Source of the DNA: a virus
Virus record (IMG/VR): IMGVR_UViG_3300013138_000023
Coordinates: 1 to 34,295 of that record
DNA length: 34,295 nt
Strand: one strand, 5' to 3'
The notes under the pieces were generated by a model that was given only the letters and a program-made list of their open reading frames with translations, was not told the DNA's origin and searched no databases. Both the position numbers and the translations under genes were made by a program. Shown piece by piece: positions 10,020-27,626 of the stretch (position 1 is its first letter; every line of letters begins with the position of its first letter).

Positions 10020-11483
10020 TTGCTAGTATTTGACGTAACTGCAGATAAGCAGTACCTTCAGTTAGTACACCATGACACCAAGGGTGAATTAAAGGATCTG
10101 CAGCTCTACTTCAAGAAGAGGCAACAGGGATACTTTCACAACATTCTTTACAAGAGAAAACTTTGGGACGGGTACGATAAATTCATCGATGACCACCATC
10201 GAATCGGTATCGGTCTGTGGCGAGAGGTGTACTACTTCGGCGAAAAGTACGATTACGAGATAGAAATCCGTGGATTGGACAGTCTTTTGAACCTGGAGTT
10301 CACAAAGGACAAGTCAGACAAGTTCGCGTCAGTAATGTTGGACGGAACTAACCCCCAAATCGAAGCCTACGATTATCAATTGGAAGCTCTTCACCGTGGA
10401 TTGAAGTACAAGTTCTGTGCACAGGAATTAGCGACCTCAGCAGGTAAGACCCTGATCTTCTTTTTATACTTATCGTTCCTGAAAAGAAAGGGAATCATTT
10501 CAAAGGACAAGAAAGCAATTCTCATAGTTCCGAAAGTATCCCTGGTCAATCAGACAGCTGATGCATTCGAAACGGAATATCAGACGGGGTTGGTCACCTG
10601 GAACATTCACCGTATAGGAGGGAAGAACGAATTCTCCGAGAAGAAATTTGCTAATTGCGATCTGGTCATCACCACCTATCAGAGCGTCATTCTCGACGAC
10701 GGTACTCCAGCCAAGCGTGGAAAAAAGAAAATAGAACGTAAGACCAAGCCGGAGTTCTTCAAGAACTTCAGCGTCGTTTGTGTAGACGAATGTCACACGA
10801 GTCGAGGAGATTCGATTCGCAACATCCTGTTGGCCAGCATCAATGCTGAGTACAAGTTGGGACTCTCCGGAACCATACAAATAGAGGAACAGTTCTCGGA
10901 CTTCTTCAAGATTCAGGAGTTCTTGGGTCCGCTTAGCATGAAGGTCAGAGCGAAGTTCTTGATGGACAACGATTACTCTGCTGACGTTCATGTCAAAATG
11001 CTAAAGCTCAAGTACCCAAAGGACGAAACGTTCGTTCAGAAGTATGCCGAGCTGAAACAGATGGAAGTTCATCCTCCTGGGAAAGTGATGTACGATATGG
11101 AAAAGGAATTCATTATCTCGTACGAACCTCGAATCAATTTCATTGCGAAGCTCTGTGAGAATTTGCAGGGGAATAAGTTAGTCCTATTCATAAACGTTAA
11201 GGACAAGTACGGGCAGCGAATTCAGGATAAGATTCACGAAACTAACGAGAACGTTTACTACATAGATGGAGGCGTGAACGATGACGATAGGAGCGACTAT
11301 CGAGAAATTTTGGAAAATTCAAATAAATTTTTAGTAATTGAATTAGCTGATAGATTCATTAAAATTAACCAATATCAATTTGTACAGCTAAATGATGGTT
11401 CTAGAAAATACGCAAAGGATTTAACAGAAATTGATGAAATCTCAGATGCATGGGTAACTTTACAAAAGTGTCAATATAAATAA
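10020..11483 (+). CDS. uvsW: UvsW-like SF2 helicase, N-terminal part (broken by insertion)
   Basis: TTG is the only usual start in the open frame; an in-frame TAA lies 16-18 bases upstream. The UvsW-type N-terminal domain contains YKRKLWDGYDKF. The helicase core follows: Q-motif-like YDYQLEAL, motif I ATSAGKT (K143), Ia LIVPKVSLVNQ, motif II DECH (256-259) and motif III SGT (283-285), then the second RecA domain up to DGGVNDDDRSDYREILEN. From about base 11320 the sequence turns AT-rich and encodes a foreign ~50-residue tail (KFLVIELADRFIKI, then VQLNDGSRKYAKDL) ending at 11483. Motifs V and VI lie 1.2 kb downstream, past an HNH gene. UvsW drives branch migration and R-loop removal in T4. This half alone cannot be an active helicase. 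Confidence 0.88.
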   Translation: MLVFDVTADKQYLQLVHHDTKGELKDLQLYFKKRQQGYFHNILYKRKLWDGYDKFIDDHHRIGIGLWREVYYFGEKYDYEIEIRGLDSLLNLEFTKDKSDKFASVMLDGTNPQIEAYDYQLEALHRGLKYKFCAQELATSAGKTLIFFLYLSFLKRKGIISKDKKAILIVPKVSLVNQTADAFETEYQTGLVTWNIHRIGGKNEFSEKKFANCDLVITTYQSVILDDGTPAKRGKKKIERKTKPEFFKNFSVVCVDECHTSRGDSIRNILLASINAEYKLGLSGTIQIEEQFSDFFKIQEFLGPLSMKVRAKFLMDNDYSADVHVKMLKLKYPKDETFVQKYAELKQMEVHPPGKVMYDMEKEFIISYEPRINFIAKLCENLQGNKLVLFINVKDKYGQRIQDKIHETNENVYYIDGGVNDDDRSDYREILENSNKFLVIELADRFIKINQYQFVQLNDGSRKYAKDLTEIDEISDAWVTLQKCQYK

Positions 11484-12525
11484 GTAAAAGTTCACATTTT
11501 GTACAGGTATGAAATTCAAAAATATAAATTACTTCTATTCACAGTTCATTAATGAATTGGGAATGCCTGACGATGACCTCAAATTATTTGAATATTTGAC
11601 TTTTTTATTACGGTATTCCGAAGTGCACGATAGTACGCAAACAGTTGAATATACTGAAAATCATCATATTCTTCCTAGATCGCCATTTAATCAGCACATC
11701 AATGCAAATTGGAACATCGTCAATCTTGTTTATTTAGATCATATTTTTGTTCATGAATTGTTAGCACAAGCGTATAATACCAGACAATTTTTGCGAACAT
11801 TAAATTTTATGAAGAGTGATATTTCTAAGAATCATAAAATTTTATCGATTGCAGCAAAGAAAGGATGGATGAAGTTAAAGAGCAATATTGAAATTTATGA
11901 AAAATGGAAGTTAGCTAGACACGAATTTTTAAAAAATATTTCACTGACAGAAAGAAGTCGTAGATCAAATAAAGCATGGGCTAAAATAAAAGCAGACCCT
12001 TTAAAGTATGCGGCACGATGCAAACAAAATAGTGAGAACTGGAGCAATGATTTACGTATATTAAAAAGTAAACAAATGAAAGAATATTTTACAAATAATC
12101 CAAAGGAAAGTTCAAATAGAGGTTTGAAACGATGGGCATCGGCTGATACAGAATATCGTAAAGCATTCGGCGAGAAAATAAAGAAATCGTTATCAACTAT
12201 AATAGTAAAAGATAAAATAAGTACAAAATTAAAAGCTAAGTGGAATGAACCTTTATTTAGAGATAAAATGAAAAACCGTAAAATTCGGCAATTCAAGTAT
12301 CTTCTTATTTCGCCACTTGGCGAAGTTTTTAGACGAGTTGGCGTCCAATCTATACTTGATGAATTTAATTTTTCAGCAAGTTTATTTAGAAAATTTACGA
12401 ATTCTAATAAGCGAGTTAAATCAAAGTATCTTAAATGTGAGAAAGTTCGAAATACAATAGGTTGGACAATTAATAAAATAAGCTGATTAATTTAATATGG
12501 CAAAAATAGTATCATTAAAAAATAT
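11320..12525 (+). mobile_element. AT-rich intervening element with HNH endonuclease inside uvsW
   Basis: The helicase reading resumes cleanly if this stretch is removed: ...DYREILEN joins TKEATGVVLVASY, which aligns with T4 UvsW around motif V. Base composition shifts abruptly to AT-rich at both edges; edges are good to about 15 bases. Content: a ~50-codon tail in frame with the helicase that has some Hint/intein flavour (LNDGSRKYAKDLTEIDEI), a 25-base gap, the HNH gene, and a short leader starting MAKIVSLKNIEEN. It could be a fractured gene with a reduced split intein, a group I intron, or a plain endonuclease insertion leaving a two-piece helicase. I found no convincing group I core motif and no classical intein start (Cys) or end (HN). 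Confidence 0.65.
11509..12486 (+). CDS. HNH homing endonuclease, 325 aa
   Basis: An HNH-type core near residues 51-83: ENHHILPRSPF, then NANWNIVNLVYLDHIFVHELLA, the layout of phage HNH homing enzymes. The remainder is very basic, with repeated short W/K-rich segments (RSNKAWAKIK, NRGLKRWAS, KLKAKWNEP) that look like NUMOD-type DNA-binding repeats; the C-terminus (GEVFRRVGVQSILDEFN) resembles a further NUMOD helix-turn-helix. Codons are far more AT-rich than in neighbours, a sign of recent transfer. It lies inside the interrupted helicase gene and presumably cuts uninterrupted uvsW alleles. Confidence 0.88.
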   Translation: MKFKNINYFYSQFINELGMPDDDLKLFEYLTFLLRYSEVHDSTQTVEYTENHHILPRSPFNQHINANWNIVNLVYLDHIFVHELLAQAYNTRQFLRTLNFMKSDISKNHKILSIAAKKGWMKLKSNIEIYEKWKLARHEFLKNISLTERSRRSNKAWAKIKADPLKYAARCKQNSENWSNDLRILKSKQMKEYFTNNPKESSNRGLKRWASADTEYRKAFGEKIKKSLSTIIVKDKISTKLKAKWNEPLFRDKMKNRKIRQFKYLLISPLGEVFRRVGVQSILDEFNFSASLFRKFTNSNKRVKSKYLKCEKVRNTIGWTINKIS

Positions 12526-12577
12526 AGAGGAGAATACGAAGGAGGCAACTGGCGTTGTGCTAGTTGCCTCCTATTGA
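12497..12577 (+). CDS. Short ORF holding the resumed helicase sequence (26 codons)
   Basis: ATG to TGA, product MAKIVSLKNIEEN followed by TKEATGVVLVASY. The second half matches the strand before motif V of UvsW (T4: GIIIVASYGVFSTG). The expected next residues, GTFSTG, are present but start seven bases later in another frame, after TGAGGTC. This may be the start of a C-terminal helicase polypeptide that is frame-broken, or that needs a frameshift to continue. Confidence 0.5.
   Translation: MAKIVSLKNIEENTKEATGVVLVASY
12541..12571 (+). other. Perfect 10-bp hairpin at the helicase frame break
   Basis: GGAGGCAACT and AGTTGCCTCC enclose the 11-base loop GGCGTTGTGCT. The stem ends one base before the TAT codon that precedes the TGA. 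It lies inside sequence coding for conserved helicase residues, so it is either chance or a recoding/pausing structure. Confidence 0.6.
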
Positions 12578-12842
12578 GGTCGGAACGTTTTCTACTGGAA
12601 TAAACTTGAAGAATGTCAACTACATCATATTCGCCGAAAGCTACAAATCTGAAATCACCGTTCGACAGTCAATCGGCCGTGGAATGCGTAAGCTGAAGGG
12701 AAAGTACAAGATCACCATTTTGGATCTCGTTGACGATCTTGATGGGTACATCGTGAAGCACGGAAAAGTTAGGGAAAAAATCTACAAGGAACAGGAATTT
12801 GTGACTTCAAAACACGAGTACGATCTGACTCCGTTTAGGTAA
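12564..12842 (+). CDS. uvsW: UvsW-like helicase, C-terminal part (motifs V and VI)
   Basis: From VGTFSTGINLKNVN onward the frame encodes helicase motif V, then YIIFAESYKSEITV and motif VI RQSIGRGMRK, followed by KITILDLVDDLDGY. This corresponds to the last ~80 residues of T4 UvsW. The frame can start only at TTG 12564 (or read through from the preceding short ORF by a +1 shift at TAT-T). It has no good ribosome binding site, and GGAGG upstream is within the hairpin. It would complete the helicase only by splicing in trans, assembly of fragments, or recoding. Confidence 0.75.
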   Translation: MPPIEVGTFSTGINLKNVNYIIFAESYKSEITVRQSIGRGMRKLKGKYKITILDLVDDLDGYIVKHGKVREKIYKEQEFVTSKHEYDLTPFR

Positions 12843-14666: not shown

Positions 14667-16295
14667 ATGAATCAAACATTAGAACAACGAATAAAGTCAT
14701 TGGATCTTAAGCAGAATGCTATTAAGATCCTTATCAATTCTTTCTATGGTGCGTTTGGAAATCGCTATTTTTACTTCCACAATAATGATATTGCTCAGTC
14801 CATCACCCTACAGGGTCAGGACCTCATCAAGTTCTCGATCAAGGCAATAAACCACTACTTCATGAACATGTGGCACCTTGATACCGAACTTCACGAGAAG
14901 CTCGGTATCTTGGGAAGACCGATTTCGAAGATCGAAAAGGAAGCAGCAATTTACACCGACACCGATTCCATTTATTCCTGCATTGAGTACGCAATCAATT
15001 CAATTCAGAGAGATCTAAACTTGACCGATCAAGAAGCTTTGCAGTTCTGCTTGGACGTCAATGCTTACAGACTTCACGAGTACTTCGAACGCTGTTTCGA
15101 AAAGTACGCTCAGCATTTCAACACGAAAAATCACCAGAACTTCGAGCTCGAAAACATATCTCGCGCAGGAATTTGGGTAGCAAAGAAAAAGTACATTCTT
15201 GAGGTTGCTTCCAAAGGAACCAAGCTTCTTCCGAAACCGTACCTCATGATCAAGGGTCTCGAAGCTATTCAATCCTCGTATCCTATCTGGGCTCGCCAGA
15301 ACTTGCAAAAAATTTACTGGATCCTCCTGGCAAAAGGTTACGATCTCGATTTCGAAAACGATCTCATTCCGGTGATGAAAGCAATGAAAGCCGAAATGGA
15401 ACAGATGCTCATCGACGAAATAGCATTCAATTTTTCCGTAAGAGTTTACGAGGAACACCTCAGAAGCTTGCTTCCATTGGTGATGGAAAAAGGAATGCCG
15501 ATTTACGGCAGAGCTTCAGCTTATCACAATCACGTGATTCAAAAGACAAACAATCAGAAGTATCCGTTGATTCGTAGCGGTTCCAAGATCAAATTCTACT
15601 ACGCTGCGAATAACGAATACGATTTCGACGTTTTCGCCTATGCACCAGGAGCTTTTCCGGAATTCGCAATGCCTATCGATCGCGAGCAGCAATTCTTCCG
15701 TCTCATAGTCGAACCCATAAACAAGCTTCTCTTAGCCATGGGATTCAGCAAATTGAATTCGAAGTTAATTCGTCATATCGAGATAATAAAACCCAGGAGC
15801 AGAACGAAAGCTTTCACTAACGACGAAACGTATCCACTGTACACGGTGCATTCGGAAACTCTCGATTTCACTCCTATTCCGGAAAGTGTTCAGCATTTCG
15901 TTGGAAATCCGGACGTAACCATACCGCCAGATCTGTTTCCGATATTCATTTCGTCGATCACGACGTACGGTCTTTCGACAGTTATCGTTTCAAAGCACGA
16001 ATTGCAAAAGTACCGTGAACGTATAGCGAAGAAAAAAGGAATAACGATTACCGATCCTTTTGAAACTCCGTACGATGAGATGGTGATAGTTCTCGAACAG
16101 AACGGTTGGGAAAAATCCTGGGGAGACGATAACTGGGTAAAATCGAAAGCTAAGAATAAGGAAGCTAACACAGGTATATCGACGAAAGCTGCGTATTTAA
16201 GGGTCATGAAGATCTTACAGAAGAAAATGGTCACTCCGTACACAGCAGAAGAATTAGCGGAACACGAAGAAGAATTAAGAAGAGGTATTGAATAA
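14667..16295 (+). CDS. 43: Family B DNA polymerase, C-terminal half (split gp43), 542 aa
   Basis: The protein begins almost directly with polymerase motif B (K20...N24-S25-F-Y27-G28, in NAIKILINSFYGAFGN) and continues with motif C YTDTDS (catalytic D98 and D100), then thumb. The 3'-5' exonuclease and motif A (DxxSLYP) are absent, and no plus-strand coding for them lies immediately upstream, where minus-strand genes sit. Splits between motif A and motif B are known in some T4-related Aeromonas phages, and RM378 also has a split polymerase. The partner subunit must lie outside this window. The late region (~450-540) has a basic AKNKEANTGIS segment. It overlaps the primase start by 1 base (TAATG). 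Confidence 0.92.
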   Translation: MNQTLEQRIKSLDLKQNAIKILINSFYGAFGNRYFYFHNNDIAQSITLQGQDLIKFSIKAINHYFMNMWHLDTELHEKLGILGRPISKIEKEAAIYTDTDSIYSCIEYAINSIQRDLNLTDQEALQFCLDVNAYRLHEYFERCFEKYAQHFNTKNHQNFELENISRAGIWVAKKKYILEVASKGTKLLPKPYLMIKGLEAIQSSYPIWARQNLQKIYWILLAKGYDLDFENDLIPVMKAMKAEMEQMLIDEIAFNFSVRVYEEHLRSLLPLVMEKGMPIYGRASAYHNHVIQKTNNQKYPLIRSGSKIKFYYAANNEYDFDVFAYAPGAFPEFAMPIDREQQFFRLIVEPINKLLLAMGFSKLNSKLIRHIEIIKPRSRTKAFTNDETYPLYTVHSETLDFTPIPESVQHFVGNPDVTIPPDLFPIFISSITTYGLSTVIVSKHELQKYRERIAKKKGITITDPFETPYDEMVIVLEQNGWEKSWGDDNWVKSKAKNKEANTGISTKAAYLRVMKILQKKMVTPYTAEELAEHEEELRRGIE

Positions 16296-17464: not shown

Positions 17465-18166
17465 ATGCCAGCTAAAATACTTTTCCGGGAGAATATTACG
17501 TCTGAAGTTATCAGATTATACGTAGATGAATTTTTTAATTGTTGTCAAATAGCTCGAAATTTGCATTTGAAACCCCATCAAGTTACTACCATATTAAAAC
17601 GTAATGAAATAGCAATTGAAAAAATTGAAAAAAAGTCCAACCGAAAATATCGTAATCTAACGGACTCTACAAAAGATAAAATATCTAAAAGTTTACTCGG
17701 AAAACCTAGTGGCAGGTTAGGTAAAAGTATGTCACTTAGACATAAATATAATAATATCAAGTCTCAATTGAGAATGCCAACGCTAAAATTGGAACAGTAT
17801 TCAAATTATGATAAACTTAGATTTATTTTTCAATGGATTTGCCCATTACGAACTAGTAAAACTAACGATGAAAATTACGATTATGGGCAATCATATATTG
17901 AAAAGTTTATAGAAAAATTCTACAATGATGAGTATTTCAATGAATTATATGATTCTTGGGTAAACACTAATAACAATAAGTTAATACGCCCAACCATAGA
18001 CCATATAATTCCTAGAGCTAGAGGCGGAACTAATCATTTAGATAATCTACAGATTTTATCGTGGTTTGAAAATAGAGCTAAGGGAGATATGACCGAAGAG
18101 GAATGGAAACTCTTTAAGATAAATCATAATATCACGTGCGATCTTTTTAGACTTTCTGATAAATAG
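17465..18166 (+). CDS. Free-standing HNH endonuclease, 233 aa
   Basis: Classic HNH core near the C-terminus (residues 179-208): DHIIPRARGGTNHLDNLQILS then NRAKGDM, of the McrA-like type. The N-terminal ~60 residues look like a helix-turn-helix (CQIARNLHLKPHQVTTILKRN), and KISKSLLGKPSG resembles a NUMOD3-type DNA-contact motif. Codon use is very AT-rich. It stands between primase and the head completion gene, 4 bases before the latter's GTG, like a homing gene that targets a neighbouring locus in related phages. Confidence 0.9.
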   Translation: MPAKILFRENITSEVIRLYVDEFFNCCQIARNLHLKPHQVTTILKRNEIAIEKIEKKSNRKYRNLTDSTKDKISKSLLGKPSGRLGKSMSLRHKYNNIKSQLRMPTLKLEQYSNYDKLRFIFQWICPLRTSKTNDENYDYGQSYIEKFIEKFYNDEYFNELYDSWVNTNNNKLIRPTIDHIIPRARGGTNHLDNLQILSWFENRAKGDMTEEEWKLFKINHNITCDLFRLSDK

Positions 18167-18170
18167 TATT

Positions 18171-18683
18171 GTGCACACACCTAAAACTAATACGATCAAA
18201 GATTTTCTAAAACCTAGAAATGGCTTGCGCCTTCCTAGACAGGGTTATTATAAGCCAATTTATCCAGAAAAATATATAGGACGTTTAGATCAAATTATTT
18301 TTCGAAGTTCTTGGGAATTTCGATTCTTGAAATGGTGTGATTTGAATCCACAGATCAAAAATTATGCTAGTGAACCGATTCCAATTCCATTTTTTAATCC
18401 GCTAGACAAAAGAGTTCATAAATATTATGTAGATTTCTACGTTAAGATAATTGGGCAAGACGGAAAGGAAAGTGAATACTTATTAGAGGTGAAGCCCAAT
18501 AAGTACATAACTCCCCCGAAAGCTCCAGAACGAATGACGGACAAGCAGACCGCAAATTACGTTTGGGCTGCAAAACAGTACATAGTGAATCAGGCGAAAT
18601 TCGAAGCTGCCAAAGCGTTTGCTGAGCAAAAGGGAGTTAAATTCGGGATCATTACTGAAAACTTTCTGTTCAAATCCATATAA
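18171..18683 (+). CDS. 4: Head completion protein (T4 gp4-like), 170 aa
   Basis: GTG start 4 bases after the HNH stop. The signature of the T4 gp4/gp50 family is visible: IIFRSSWEFRFLKWCDLNP, then YASEPIPIPFFNPLDKRVHKYYVDFYVK and LLEVKP, a TnsA/PD-(D/E)xK-like arrangement (E of WEFRF, D of YVDF, E-x-K of EVKP). In T4, gp4 finishes filled heads before tail joining. The first ~310 bases use AT-rich codons like the HNH gene; from about 18480 the usual codon style returns, suggesting the 5' part arrived with the endonuclease. Confidence 0.85.
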   Translation: MHTPKTNTIKDFLKPRNGLRLPRQGYYKPIYPEKYIGRLDQIIFRSSWEFRFLKWCDLNPQIKNYASEPIPIPFFNPLDKRVHKYYVDFYVKIIGQDGKESEYLLEVKPNKYITPPKAPERMTDKQTANYVWAAKQYIVNQAKFEAAKAFAEQKGVKFGIITENFLFKSI

Positions 18684-25060: not shown

Positions 25061-27037
25061 CTACTTTATTGATAGGCAGTCCTCTTTCGCCTTCCTCGTG
25101 ATCACCAGGTGATCTCCTTTTTTGACCTTATTGTCTACATAGGCTTCGGCTATGAGGTCCTCCAGGTGTGACTGAATGACTCGGTGTAACGGACGAGCTC
25201 CGAACTTTTCGTCGTAGCCTTTTTCGATAAGGAATTCCTTCGCCTTGTCCGTGATTTCGACGAAGTACCCATTTTCTTCTACTCGTTCCTTGAGATTGGC
25301 AAGTTCGATGTCAATGATCTTTCCGATGTCAGCCTTGGTCAAGGAATTGAAGGTGATGATGTCATCGATACGATTGATGAACTCCGGCGCGAACTGTTTG
25401 CTTACAGCTTTACGAAGAACCTCGTTCGCCAGTTCCTTTTGCCTTTCGATTTGACCGGCTGTTGCAAATCCTATGCCGGTTCCGAACTCCTGCAAAGTTT
25501 TTATCCCAACGTTCGACGTCATGATGATGACCGTGTTCTTGAAGTCAACGGTCTTTCCCAAACCGTCAGTCAAACGACCGTCATCGAGAACTTGGAGTAG
25601 CAGGTTAAAGATTGAAGGGTCTGCTTTCTCGATTTCGTCGAGAAGCACGACCGAATACGGCTTACGCCGAACTTTTTCGGTCAACTGACCGCCGTTCTCG
25701 TAACCAACGTATCCCGGAGGAGCTCCAATTATGCGGCTTCCTGAGAATTTTTCGCTGTATTCGGACATGTCAATACGAAGCAGAGCATCTTCCGAATTGA
25801 AAAGGAACTTTGCAAGCTGTTTTGCTAGTTCGCTCTTACCTACCCCGCTAGGGCCGATGAAAAGAAACGTTCCAATCGGCTTTTTCTTTGACTTCAGACC
25901 GGCTCGTGAGCGTTTTATTGCCCTTGCGAGCTTATGGATGGCCGAATCCTGTCCGACTATGAATTTCTGTAGAGATTCTTCCATTCCGGACAGCTTCTGG
26001 ATGTCAGTTCCCGTCATTTTATTGACCGGAATGCCAGTAATGTTGGAAACAAGCTTGGCTATGTCATCTTCGGTGACTGAAAAGCGATTTGCTTTCAGAG
26101 ATTGCTCCCATTCTCTCTTTGCTTCTGTAATTTCATCGGCCGCCGCAAGAGCTTCATCCCTGAGTTTTGCTGCGGCTTCGTAATCTTGAGAATTTACAGC
26201 ATCGTTCTTCTTTTTGATGACCCCGACCAATTTTTCTTCGAGAGTTTTGATGTTAGAAGGAACTACCACACCGTTTATATGAACTGTAGCTCCAGCTTCG
26301 TCCATAAGGTCGATCGCTTTGTCCGGAAGCCATCTGTCCTGAATGTACAGATCGCTGTACTTGACGCAAGCGTCCAAAGCGTCCTCAGTGTACCTTACAG
26401 AGTGATGATCTTCGTACTTTTCCTTGATGTTCTCGAGGATTTCACAAGTTTCGTCAGCGGTTGGCGGATTTATGATGATTTGTTGGAACCTGCGGTTGAG
26501 AGCTCCGTCCTTTTCGATTGAATTACGGAATTCGTCGATAGTTGTAGCTCCAATGCACTGAATTTCTCCCCTTGCGAGAGCTGGCTTAAGAATGTTAGCA
26601 GCATCGAGCGATCCGCTTGCGGATCCGGCTCCTACTAAAGCATGAACCTCATCGATGAACAGAATCATGTTTCCGTTGTGCTGGACTTCCTGAATTATCT
26701 GTTCCATTCGCTGTTCGAACTCTCCACGATACTTGGTTCCGGCAACGAGGTTAGCGAGTTCAAGGGCAATGATTCTTTTTCCGAGAAGTACTCTCGGACA
26801 AGTCCGGTTCACTATCATGGTCGCTAAACCTTCGACAATCGCCGTTTTTCCAACGCCAGGTTCTCCAATCAGCAACGGATTGTTCTTTTTCCTTCTCGAA
26901 AGTATCTGGCTGCATCTCTTGATTTCTGAGATACGGCCTACCACTGGATCGAGCTTTCCGTCCATTGCTAATTGAGTCAGATCCTTACCGAAGACATCTA
27001 CTAGAGGAGTTTTAGTGCTTTGAGCTGTCTTTACCAT
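25061..27037 (-). CDS. clpC-like: ClpC-like AAA+ unfoldase lacking the N domain, 658 aa
   Basis: Two AAA+ modules. D1 has Walker A GEPGVGKT (58-65) and Walker B ILFIDE (125-130). A short middle region with a UVR-like segment (NSQDYEAAAKLRDEAL) follows; this favours ClpC over the long-coiled ClpB. D2 has Walker A GPSGVGKS (about 394), Walker B VVLLDEIEKAD (about 463-473) and arginine-finger region PEFINRID. The N-terminal adaptor/substrate domain (~140 residues in ClpC) is missing; the protein starts about 25 residues before the D1 core. In D2, GTGIGFATA carries an IGF tripeptide at about 522-524, where ClpA/C/X dock to ClpP. No clpP is present here, so host ClpP may be the partner. Confidence 0.93.
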   Translation of the reverse strand: MVKTAQSTKTPLVDVFGKDLTQLAMDGKLDPVVGRISEIKRCSQILSRRKKNNPLLIGEPGVGKTAIVEGLATMIVNRTCPRVLLGKRIIALELANLVAGTKYRGEFEQRMEQIIQEVQHNGNMILFIDEVHALVGAGSASGSLDAANILKPALARGEIQCIGATTIDEFRNSIEKDGALNRRFQQIIINPPTADETCEILENIKEKYEDHHSVRYTEDALDACVKYSDLYIQDRWLPDKAIDLMDEAGATVHINGVVVPSNIKTLEEKLVGVIKKKNDAVNSQDYEAAAKLRDEALAAADEITEAKREWEQSLKANRFSVTEDDIAKLVSNITGIPVNKMTGTDIQKLSGMEESLQKFIVGQDSAIHKLARAIKRSRAGLKSKKKPIGTFLFIGPSGVGKSELAKQLAKFLFNSEDALLRIDMSEYSEKFSGSRIIGAPPGYVGYENGGQLTEKVRRKPYSVVLLDEIEKADPSIFNLLLQVLDDGRLTDGLGKTVDFKNTVIIMTSNVGIKTLQEFGTGIGFATAGQIERQKELANEVLRKAVSKQFAPEFINRIDDIITFNSLTKADIGKIIDIELANLKERVEENGYFVEITDKAKEFLIEKGYDEKFGARPLHRVIQSHLEDLIAEAYVDNKVKKGDHLVITRKAKEDCLSIK

Positions 27038-27626
27038 TTACTTTCTTTTTGCAATTTTCGAAATGCCATCTGTACATTCCGTTAGTTTTTCCGGAAGTGC
27101 CACAGTGTGGGCACGTTAATTCGCGAAATGCTGTTTTGTGTGTTTCAAAATATGCAGTTAATGTACTGCTAATTTTTTGTAATCGTTCACTTTTTTTAAT
27201 CGGATCAATATTTTGCCAATCTCTTTTTACCGATTCTCTACGTTTATTTCTTTCCTCTTCTGCATTTTCAATTCCGTGAATTTGTTCATACGTTTTACCG
27301 GATAAAGCTGCTGATATGCGGTTCTTTGTTTCTATTGAGTGATGCATTTTGAATCCTTCTCCACCGTCAGTAAAATTAGAAAGAATTCCGTCATTTGTAA
27401 GTTTGCCATATCTTAGAATGTATTCTTTTTCTAATCGACAGGCTTCCTCCCAAGAAATATTGTCATGTAATATTTCGACTTTATATTCTGTCTTCTTAAC
27501 GATGTTATTCCATAGCGGATTGCGATTGTGTTTCTTATATGCACGTCGGTAATCTGGCCCCAATCCTATTCCGATATAAAAAATAGAATTCGTATCTAAT
27601 CGTATGTGCTGGTAGACATAAGCCAT
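27012..27626 (-). CDS. GIY-YIG homing endonuclease with C-terminal zinc finger, 204 aa
   Basis: The N-terminus YVYQHIRLDTNSIFYIGIG fits the GIY-YIG fold (strand, 10-residue loop, YIG), followed by R27/R28 and the later acidic E of LEKEYILRYG. A middle NUMOD3-like KNRISAALSGKTYEQI and a C-terminal CPHCGTSGKTNGMYRWHFENC zinc finger are DNA-binding parts. AT-rich codons mark it as foreign. Its last 26 bases overlap the start of the clp gene. Free-standing homing gene, probably spread into the clp leader. Confidence 0.9.
   Translation of the reverse strand: MAYVYQHIRLDTNSIFYIGIGLGPDYRRAYKKHNRNPLWNNIVKKTEYKVEILHDNISWEEACRLEKEYILRYGKLTNDGILSNFTDGGEGFKMHHSIETKNRISAALSGKTYEQIHGIENAEEERNKRRESVKRDWQNIDPIKKSERLQKISSTLTAYFETHKTAFRELTCPHCGTSGKTNGMYRWHFENCKKKVNGKDSSKH

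Follow-up and report, generated by a model that had tools for sequence, protein, structure and literature searches.

A phage uvsW helicase gene split by an HNH homing cassette that may carry a short ribosome-bypass element

Our analysis of a viral DNA stretch of 34,295 nucleotides (nt) (IMG/VR record IMGVR_UViG_3300013138_000023, positions 1 to 34,295; hereafter the window) highlights uvsW, a DNA-repair helicase gene that has been cut in two by a mobile endonuclease gene, and identifies the virus as a phage. The split locus occupies positions 10020-12842 and, like all of its parts given below, lies on the plus strand. We propose, with a probability of about 0.6, that the interruption is a homing cassette with a short ribosome-bypass element, which resembles the T4 mobA/gene 60 system but is of a new type. 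The split, the family of tails on its upstream half, the identity of the insertion site, the recurrent stop and gap in its downstream half and their association with a hairpin are supported directly; the bypass, the docking of the halves and the protection of the cassette from its own enzyme are what we infer.

The open reading frame (ORF) at 10020-11483, which begins with TTG, is the N-terminal part of a UvsW-type helicase, comprising helicase motifs I-IV and an element-derived C-terminal tail. It matches the Pfam families ResIII (5.7e-18) and DEAD (5.5e-13) and a PHROG DNA helicase (6e-43), with a sub-threshold Pfam match to UvsW_N (6.9e-4), and has intact homologues in the related loci L003-L033. 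Motifs V and VI lie at 12582-12842, where the Pfam match to Helicase_C is sub-threshold, and an HNH homing endonuclease gene (11509-12486; PHROG 12434/655) stands between the two parts. An earlier reading of the window from its letters alone (the sequence-only reading) had divided the helicase motifs between two ORFs with an AT-rich HNH gene between them, and the Pfam and PHROG matches bear this out; motifs V-VI are in the second ORF as it stated, and the first holds motifs I-IV rather than I-III. The N-part has a GC content of 44%, the tail 25% and the HNH gene 30%, and the value is back to 44% beyond. The split is not an accident of assembly, because two further IMG/VR contigs (L001 and L002; three independent contigs in all) match all 2.8 kb without a difference. 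About 30 relatives, 57-72% identical, have an intact single uvsW, among them L003 (72% identical), which represents the empty site and reads DDRSEYRSIMESNAGVVLVASFGTFSTGINLKN at the junction. Given the identity of L001 and L002 and these intact genes, the insertion is real and, among close kin, private to the window phage. Alignment with the uninterrupted genes showed that the tail is not ordinary UvsW sequence, and the foreign, in-frame nature ascribed to it by the sequence-only reading is confirmed by its 25% GC and its absence from L003 and all other intact relatives.

The downstream half reveals a feature that the sequence-only reading did not include. The C-part starts at an ATG at 12497 (MAKIVSLKNIEENTKEATGVVLVASY, then an in-frame TGA; 12497-12577), and its leader has counterparts in relatives. 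This frame, beginning MAKIVSLKNIEEN, ends in TGA (12575-12577) directly after ...VVLVASY, and the rest of the C-part (GTFSTGINLKN..., motifs V and VI; 12582-12842) is in the +1 frame relative to the leader, so that the C-part, earlier taken as a single frame, is divided between two. The stop opens a 7-nt coding gap, TGAGGTC (12575-12581), which is absent from intact relatives; the DNA of the window and L003 is collinear at the junction except for this 7-nt insertion. The putative take-off codon is the TAT that precedes it (12572-12574; Tyr of VASY). Upstream is a near-perfect RNA hairpin (12540-12572) of 14 base pairs (bp), including one G-U, with a 5-nt loop (AGGAGGCAACTGGC/GTTGT/GCTAGTTGCCTCCT), whose 3' arm ends in TAT.

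The same anatomy is found in five lineages, in each of which a stop codon directly follows VAS[Y/S] (or IATY) and extra nucleotides precede the native GTF or GIF. The gap is 7 nt in the window (TAT-TGAGGTC-GGA), 7 nt in L104/L105 (TAC-TGAGGAC-GGA in L104), 11 nt in L068-L072 (TCG-TGAATGATTCG-GGG in L068/L072, where the landing codon TCG equals the take-off TCG), 7 nt in L076 (TAT-TAGGTGC-GGT) and 6 nt in L078 (TAT-TAGTGA-GGG), corresponding to frames of +1, +1, +2, +1 and 0. Because these frames differ, no single frameshift or readthrough event fits all five. The residues that flank the gap form the exact native VAS[YS]/GTF junction in 5/5 lineages and, judged from these sequences, skipping of the gap would restore the exact native residues in each.

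A hairpin of 10-14 bp abuts the last codon before the stop in 5/5 gapped lineages. When the 54 nt before the gap were compared with synonymous recodings, the five lineages gave z scores of -4.5, -3.5, -3.6, -4.3 and -4.0; the window hairpin has a z of -4.5 in this test and -5.7 against dinucleotide shuffles. Among other genes given the same recoding test, 8 of them split without a gap and 10 intact or in frame, a hairpin signal was detected in 0/18 (z -0.5 to +1.6), and among further controls a z of -3.4 was reached by 0/195 other ORF ends and 7/758 coding windows. Among 11 pairs of the window and L104 stems, two show compensatory double changes. We also observed that in the window (12520-12600), L068 and L078 an outer stem may pair a stretch like a Shine-Dalgarno (SD) sequence, which precedes the hairpin, with codons just after the gap; this candidate stem would enclose both hairpin and gap.

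The tail on the N-part (SNKFLVIELADRFIKINQYQFVQLNDGSRKYAKDLTEIDEISDAWVTLQKCQYK; 11319-11480) represents a conserved tail family of split UvsW proteins and is possibly a degenerate half-Hint docking module. A tblastn search with the last 57 residues of the N-part matched the C-terminal tails of split UvsW in Vibrio phages, where the uvsW halves overlap by ATGA with nothing between them. Dickeya LIMEstone-type phages have a homologous tail at the same uvsW site with an HNH gene between the halves, and profile scans of IMG/VR added some ten lineages with a homologous tail at that site. Homologues occurred only on split UvsW N-parts or, as a tail-related stretch in frame within one UvsW of 581 amino acids (aa), in Vibrio phage 1.244.A. 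This intact protein (L043:1807-3552) contains an in-frame insert of about 48 aa at the same site, which is either what remains of the split form after fusion or the state from which that form arose. The gene between the halves encodes an HNH endonuclease in L058/L060, L068-L072, L073, L078 and L104/L105 and a GIY-YIG endonuclease in L055-L057/L059, L067, L076 and L080, and L061 retains a 72-aa HNH remnant. Comparison of these loci indicates that the endonuclease is exchanged across lineages while the tail, the site and the short C-leader stay; the leader mostly reads MKP[STD]..., with counterparts MKP[ST]K.. and MAKPSK... The tail is more conserved than the helicase itself, L058 and Vibrio tails sharing 63% over 41 aa and their N-parts 32%. 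No tail was found in the bacterial genomes searched, Pfam returned nothing for tail and leader at E<10 except a chance dynein match, and a sequence search of the PDB with tail profiles gave nothing meaningful. Weak non-UvsW matches to the tail in Escherichia, Shigella and Staphylococcus (E ~1-10 for the listed Staphylococcus matches) were treated as chance. AlphaFold models of 14 tails have a small beta domain and a C-terminal helix (predicted local distance difference test, pLDDT, 83). By analogy with NrdA of Aeromonas phage Aeh1, the tail and leader are likely docking tags that hold the halves together in trans. Of the arrangements offered by the sequence-only reading, which included trans-assembly and a two-subunit helicase, a two-piece helicase with element-derived tails is judged the best, with docking presumed.

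The earlier reading also described a Hint flavour in the tail, and here the weak fold and profile signals are compatible with ancestry; there is no Pfam match. Foldseek matches of the tail model were weak (all E>1), with inteins strongly over-represented; the best superposition, with VidaL, was 1.2 A over 38 residues (E>1). A hidden Markov model of the tail aligns in register to block B of the uvsW split intein of L076 at 9.5 bits, a score equalled by 2/5000 shuffles, and hhalign of the tail gave P 0.005 with a probability of 7%, other inteins being weaker than the L076 split intein. Of the intein sequences used in these comparisons, NrdJ-1, gp41-1, Npu and IMPDH-1, only NrdJ-1 was checked against the PDB. 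Assignment to Hint by sequence was rejected, the NrdJ-1 score being no better than the top 1% of shuffles. Taken together, the models and sequences are suggestive of a tail that derives from a dead split intein as a degenerate half-Hint. The L076 gene itself (L076:529-5316) is interrupted three times: by a cis intein with a LAGLIDADG endonuclease at the Walker A motif, by a canonical split intein at motif II, whose halves flank a gene for a TnsA/NUMOD3-type endonuclease, and by a tail-type split with a GIY-YIG gene, hairpin and stop at motif V.

The window HNH protein is 42% identical to that of L104 at the same site and homologous to the LIMEstone/PP35 HNH. In L068 and L072 identity is 95-100% from the tail through the gap and about 83% on both flanks; the unit therefore moves as a cassette, a mobility seen in this one pair. 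The C-parts of this pair have a ratio of nonsynonymous to synonymous substitution (dN/dS) of 0.03, which we rejected as proof of a functional gapped gene, since the flanks had diverged before the cassette arrived.

In the mechanism that we propose, a homing cassette would have entered uvsW just before the strand leading to helicase motif V, bringing with it a tail of about 50 codons that extends the N-half, the HNH gene, a start codon and brief leader with which the C-half now begins, and, where cleavage presumably occurs, the hairpin, the stop codon and the short gap. The halves would then be made as two polypeptides that assemble in trans. The C-half would nonetheless be made in one piece, as ribosomes at TAT-TGA would release the mRNA and resume at the GGA 7 nt on, and the bypass product of the window would contain the joined peptide EATGVVLVASYGTFSTGINLK. 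The anatomy and the example of T4 gene 60 suggest that the hop may be driven by the strong hairpin, which would refold immediately behind the P site and pull the mRNA. As the hairpin is flush with the take-off codon, its 3' arm would be within the ribosome at take-off and could re-form only if the mRNA advances; a hop of 6-11 nt is what such re-formation would buy. If T4 mobA/gene 60 is a guide, the gap may also destroy the target of the endonuclease and shield the cassette from its own enzyme. In a broader and more tentative form, to which we give somewhat less than even odds, homing endonucleases would recurrently be accompanied by bypassing: a class of cassettes that split uvsW in diverse phages would combine a docking tail, the half-Hint left by a dead split intein, with a compact hop element, in which the hairpin directly adjoins the take-off codon, the stop and a gap of 6-11 nt follow, and the codons for the most part do not match.

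In T4, an endonuclease has split gene 39, and the downstream gene 60 has a 50-nt insert that opens with a stop after the take-off codon (PMC5009743, PMC3014915); its upstream stem-loop is thought to be the motor that pulls the mRNA on refolding (PMC5009743, PMC3014915). As in gene 39/mobA/gene 60, an HNH insertion here splits a phage DNA-metabolism gene that is intact in related phages, an insert near the start of the new downstream gene opens with an in-frame stop after the take-off codon, and the mRNA is structured by a 5' stem-loop upstream of it. The systems differ in the gene (uvsW), in gap length (6-11 nt here, 50 in T4), in the hairpin, which here is much stronger and flush with the take-off codon (the T4 control has a z of about -1), and in codon matching, which here is limited to L068/L072; several lineages rather than one phage are involved, and here the upstream half has a conserved tail. 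The ribonucleotide reductase genes nrdA-a/mobE/nrdA-b of Aeromonas phage Aeh1 likewise represent an essential gene split by an HNH gene, in which both halves have non-native tails. The Aeh1 NrdA tails are reportedly protein interaction domains needed for activity; by eye they have no similarity to the UvsW tails. In Dickeya phage LIMEstone1, which shares the gene, the site and a homologous tail and HNH, the uvsW endonuclease I-LimI was published as intron-borne (PMC3296691), whereas the related PP35 locus gave no intron model match; the LIMEstone1 C-part has neither gap nor hairpin. Fractured genes with split inteins share the order of N-half, endonuclease and C-half, and the pattern and predicted fold of the tail are like those of intein block B, though here neither the splicing residues nor any of the Int-C region is present. 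The Streptomyces phage Hau3 terminase and the Magnusiomyces mitochondrial byps are short non-coding blocks that are thought or shown to be skipped by ribosomes, with codon matching at byps not always perfect (PMC5009743); they concern another gene, host and context, and the text consulted describes no homing-endonuclease split for them.

Several points weigh against the proposed reading. Only L068/L072 have a perfect match between take-off and landing codons (TCG/TCG), with mismatches in the window (TAT/GTC), L104 (TAC/GAC), L076 (TAT/TGC) and L078 (TAT/TGA), and landing in the window would therefore need weak or no re-pairing. L076 and L078 are each known from a single contig, AlphaFold leaves the tail unresolved in the full N-part (pLDDT below 50), the Hint ancestry is suggestive only, and the purifying selection on the L068/L072 C-part may predate the arrival of the cassette. 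This last point would also suit a fragmented and partly dead gene, in which the cassette has inactivated uvsW, as homing elements able to spread at a cost might, and hairpin and gap serve only the endonuclease through target protection or regulation. We consider this improbable, since in all lineages the C-part remains open and encodes motifs V and VI, including the long-diverged window and L104 (HNH 42%, C-part 59% identical), and both the pairing of the stem and the native residues beside the gap are preserved. Reinitiation is unlikely as well, though it deserves more weight: the helicase would be made in two or three pieces, a leader ORF ending at the stop and the ribosome restarting at a nearby in-frame non-AUG codon (TTG 12564 or ATT in the window, GTG in L068), with the hairpin presenting the SD as in T4 genes 38 and 25. 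Hairpin-bridged initiation is known in T4 (PMC3014915), SD-like AGGAGG/GAAAGG stretches lie at the 5' side of the hairpin in several lineages, and the GTG of L068 overlaps the stop as GTGA in the correct frame. Yet the lineages have no start codon in common, L078 has none before GTFSTG, the window SD itself sits inside the stem, and the protein would lose the motif V strand VVLVASY, whose codons and register are kept in all lineages.

Frameshifting by +1 at TAT_TGA, similar to that of RF2, would yield VASY-EV-GTFSTGIN with two extra residues. The 7-nt (+1) gaps of the window, L104 and L076 and the combination of a slow stop codon with an upstream SD, both RF2-like, are consistent with it, but the +1 codons ATT or ACT offer Tyr-tRNA poor re-pairing, a shift of +2 or -1 would be required in L068, and two stops stand in frame in L078; one common rule for all five gaps is ruled out by their 0, +1 and +2 frames, and we regard this explanation as improbable too. 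Least probable, and very much so, is the restoration of a continuous helicase by a split intein or a group I intron, both of which the sequence-only reading had raised. The tail has a Hint-like pattern and an intron is annotated at this uvsW site in LIMEstone1 (PMC3296691). However, the covariance-model search of Rfam found no match in the window, even at E<=1 and with permissive filters, or in 12 related loci, and in the Vibrio phages with the same tail and C-part the ATGA overlap leaves no room for an intron. Block A with Cys1 or Ser1, TxxH, the C-terminal HN and the whole Int-C region were not found in the tail or C-part, and protein splicing is ruled out because these splicing residues are missing. 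The Asn-Thr earlier pointed out where the helicase resumes is visible by eye, but junction residues vary among relatives, the Vibrio phages having no Asn there.

Elsewhere in the window, the family B DNA polymerase also seems to be encoded in two pieces: one piece (14667-16295) starts just before the KxxxNSxYG motif, a start shared by L004, L005, L007 and L031. Two further places hold genes that resemble those of mobile elements: an HNH ORF beside a TnsA-like endonuclease (17465-18683), and a weak GIY-YIG ORF (27012-27626) that overlaps the start of a ClpB-like ATPase gene.

A 2010 review described programmed bypassing as apparently unique to T4 gene 60 and asked whether other T4-related phages use it (PMC3014915). 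The bypass proposed here would place the gene 60 logic in another gene in five phage lineages, with far shorter gaps and a much cleaner candidate for the motor hairpin, and these elements would be ready-made minimal systems in which to learn how mRNA refolding moves ribosomes. They suggest that such elements may originate in the repair of, and immunity to, homing endonuclease insertion, while the recurrent tail points to a way in which important phage enzymes may stay functional when divided in two. Should bypassing be disproved, some other reason would have to be found for the shared stop, gap and hairpin; if it is true, ribosome bypassing would be no oddity of T4 but a recurrent partner of homing endonucleases.

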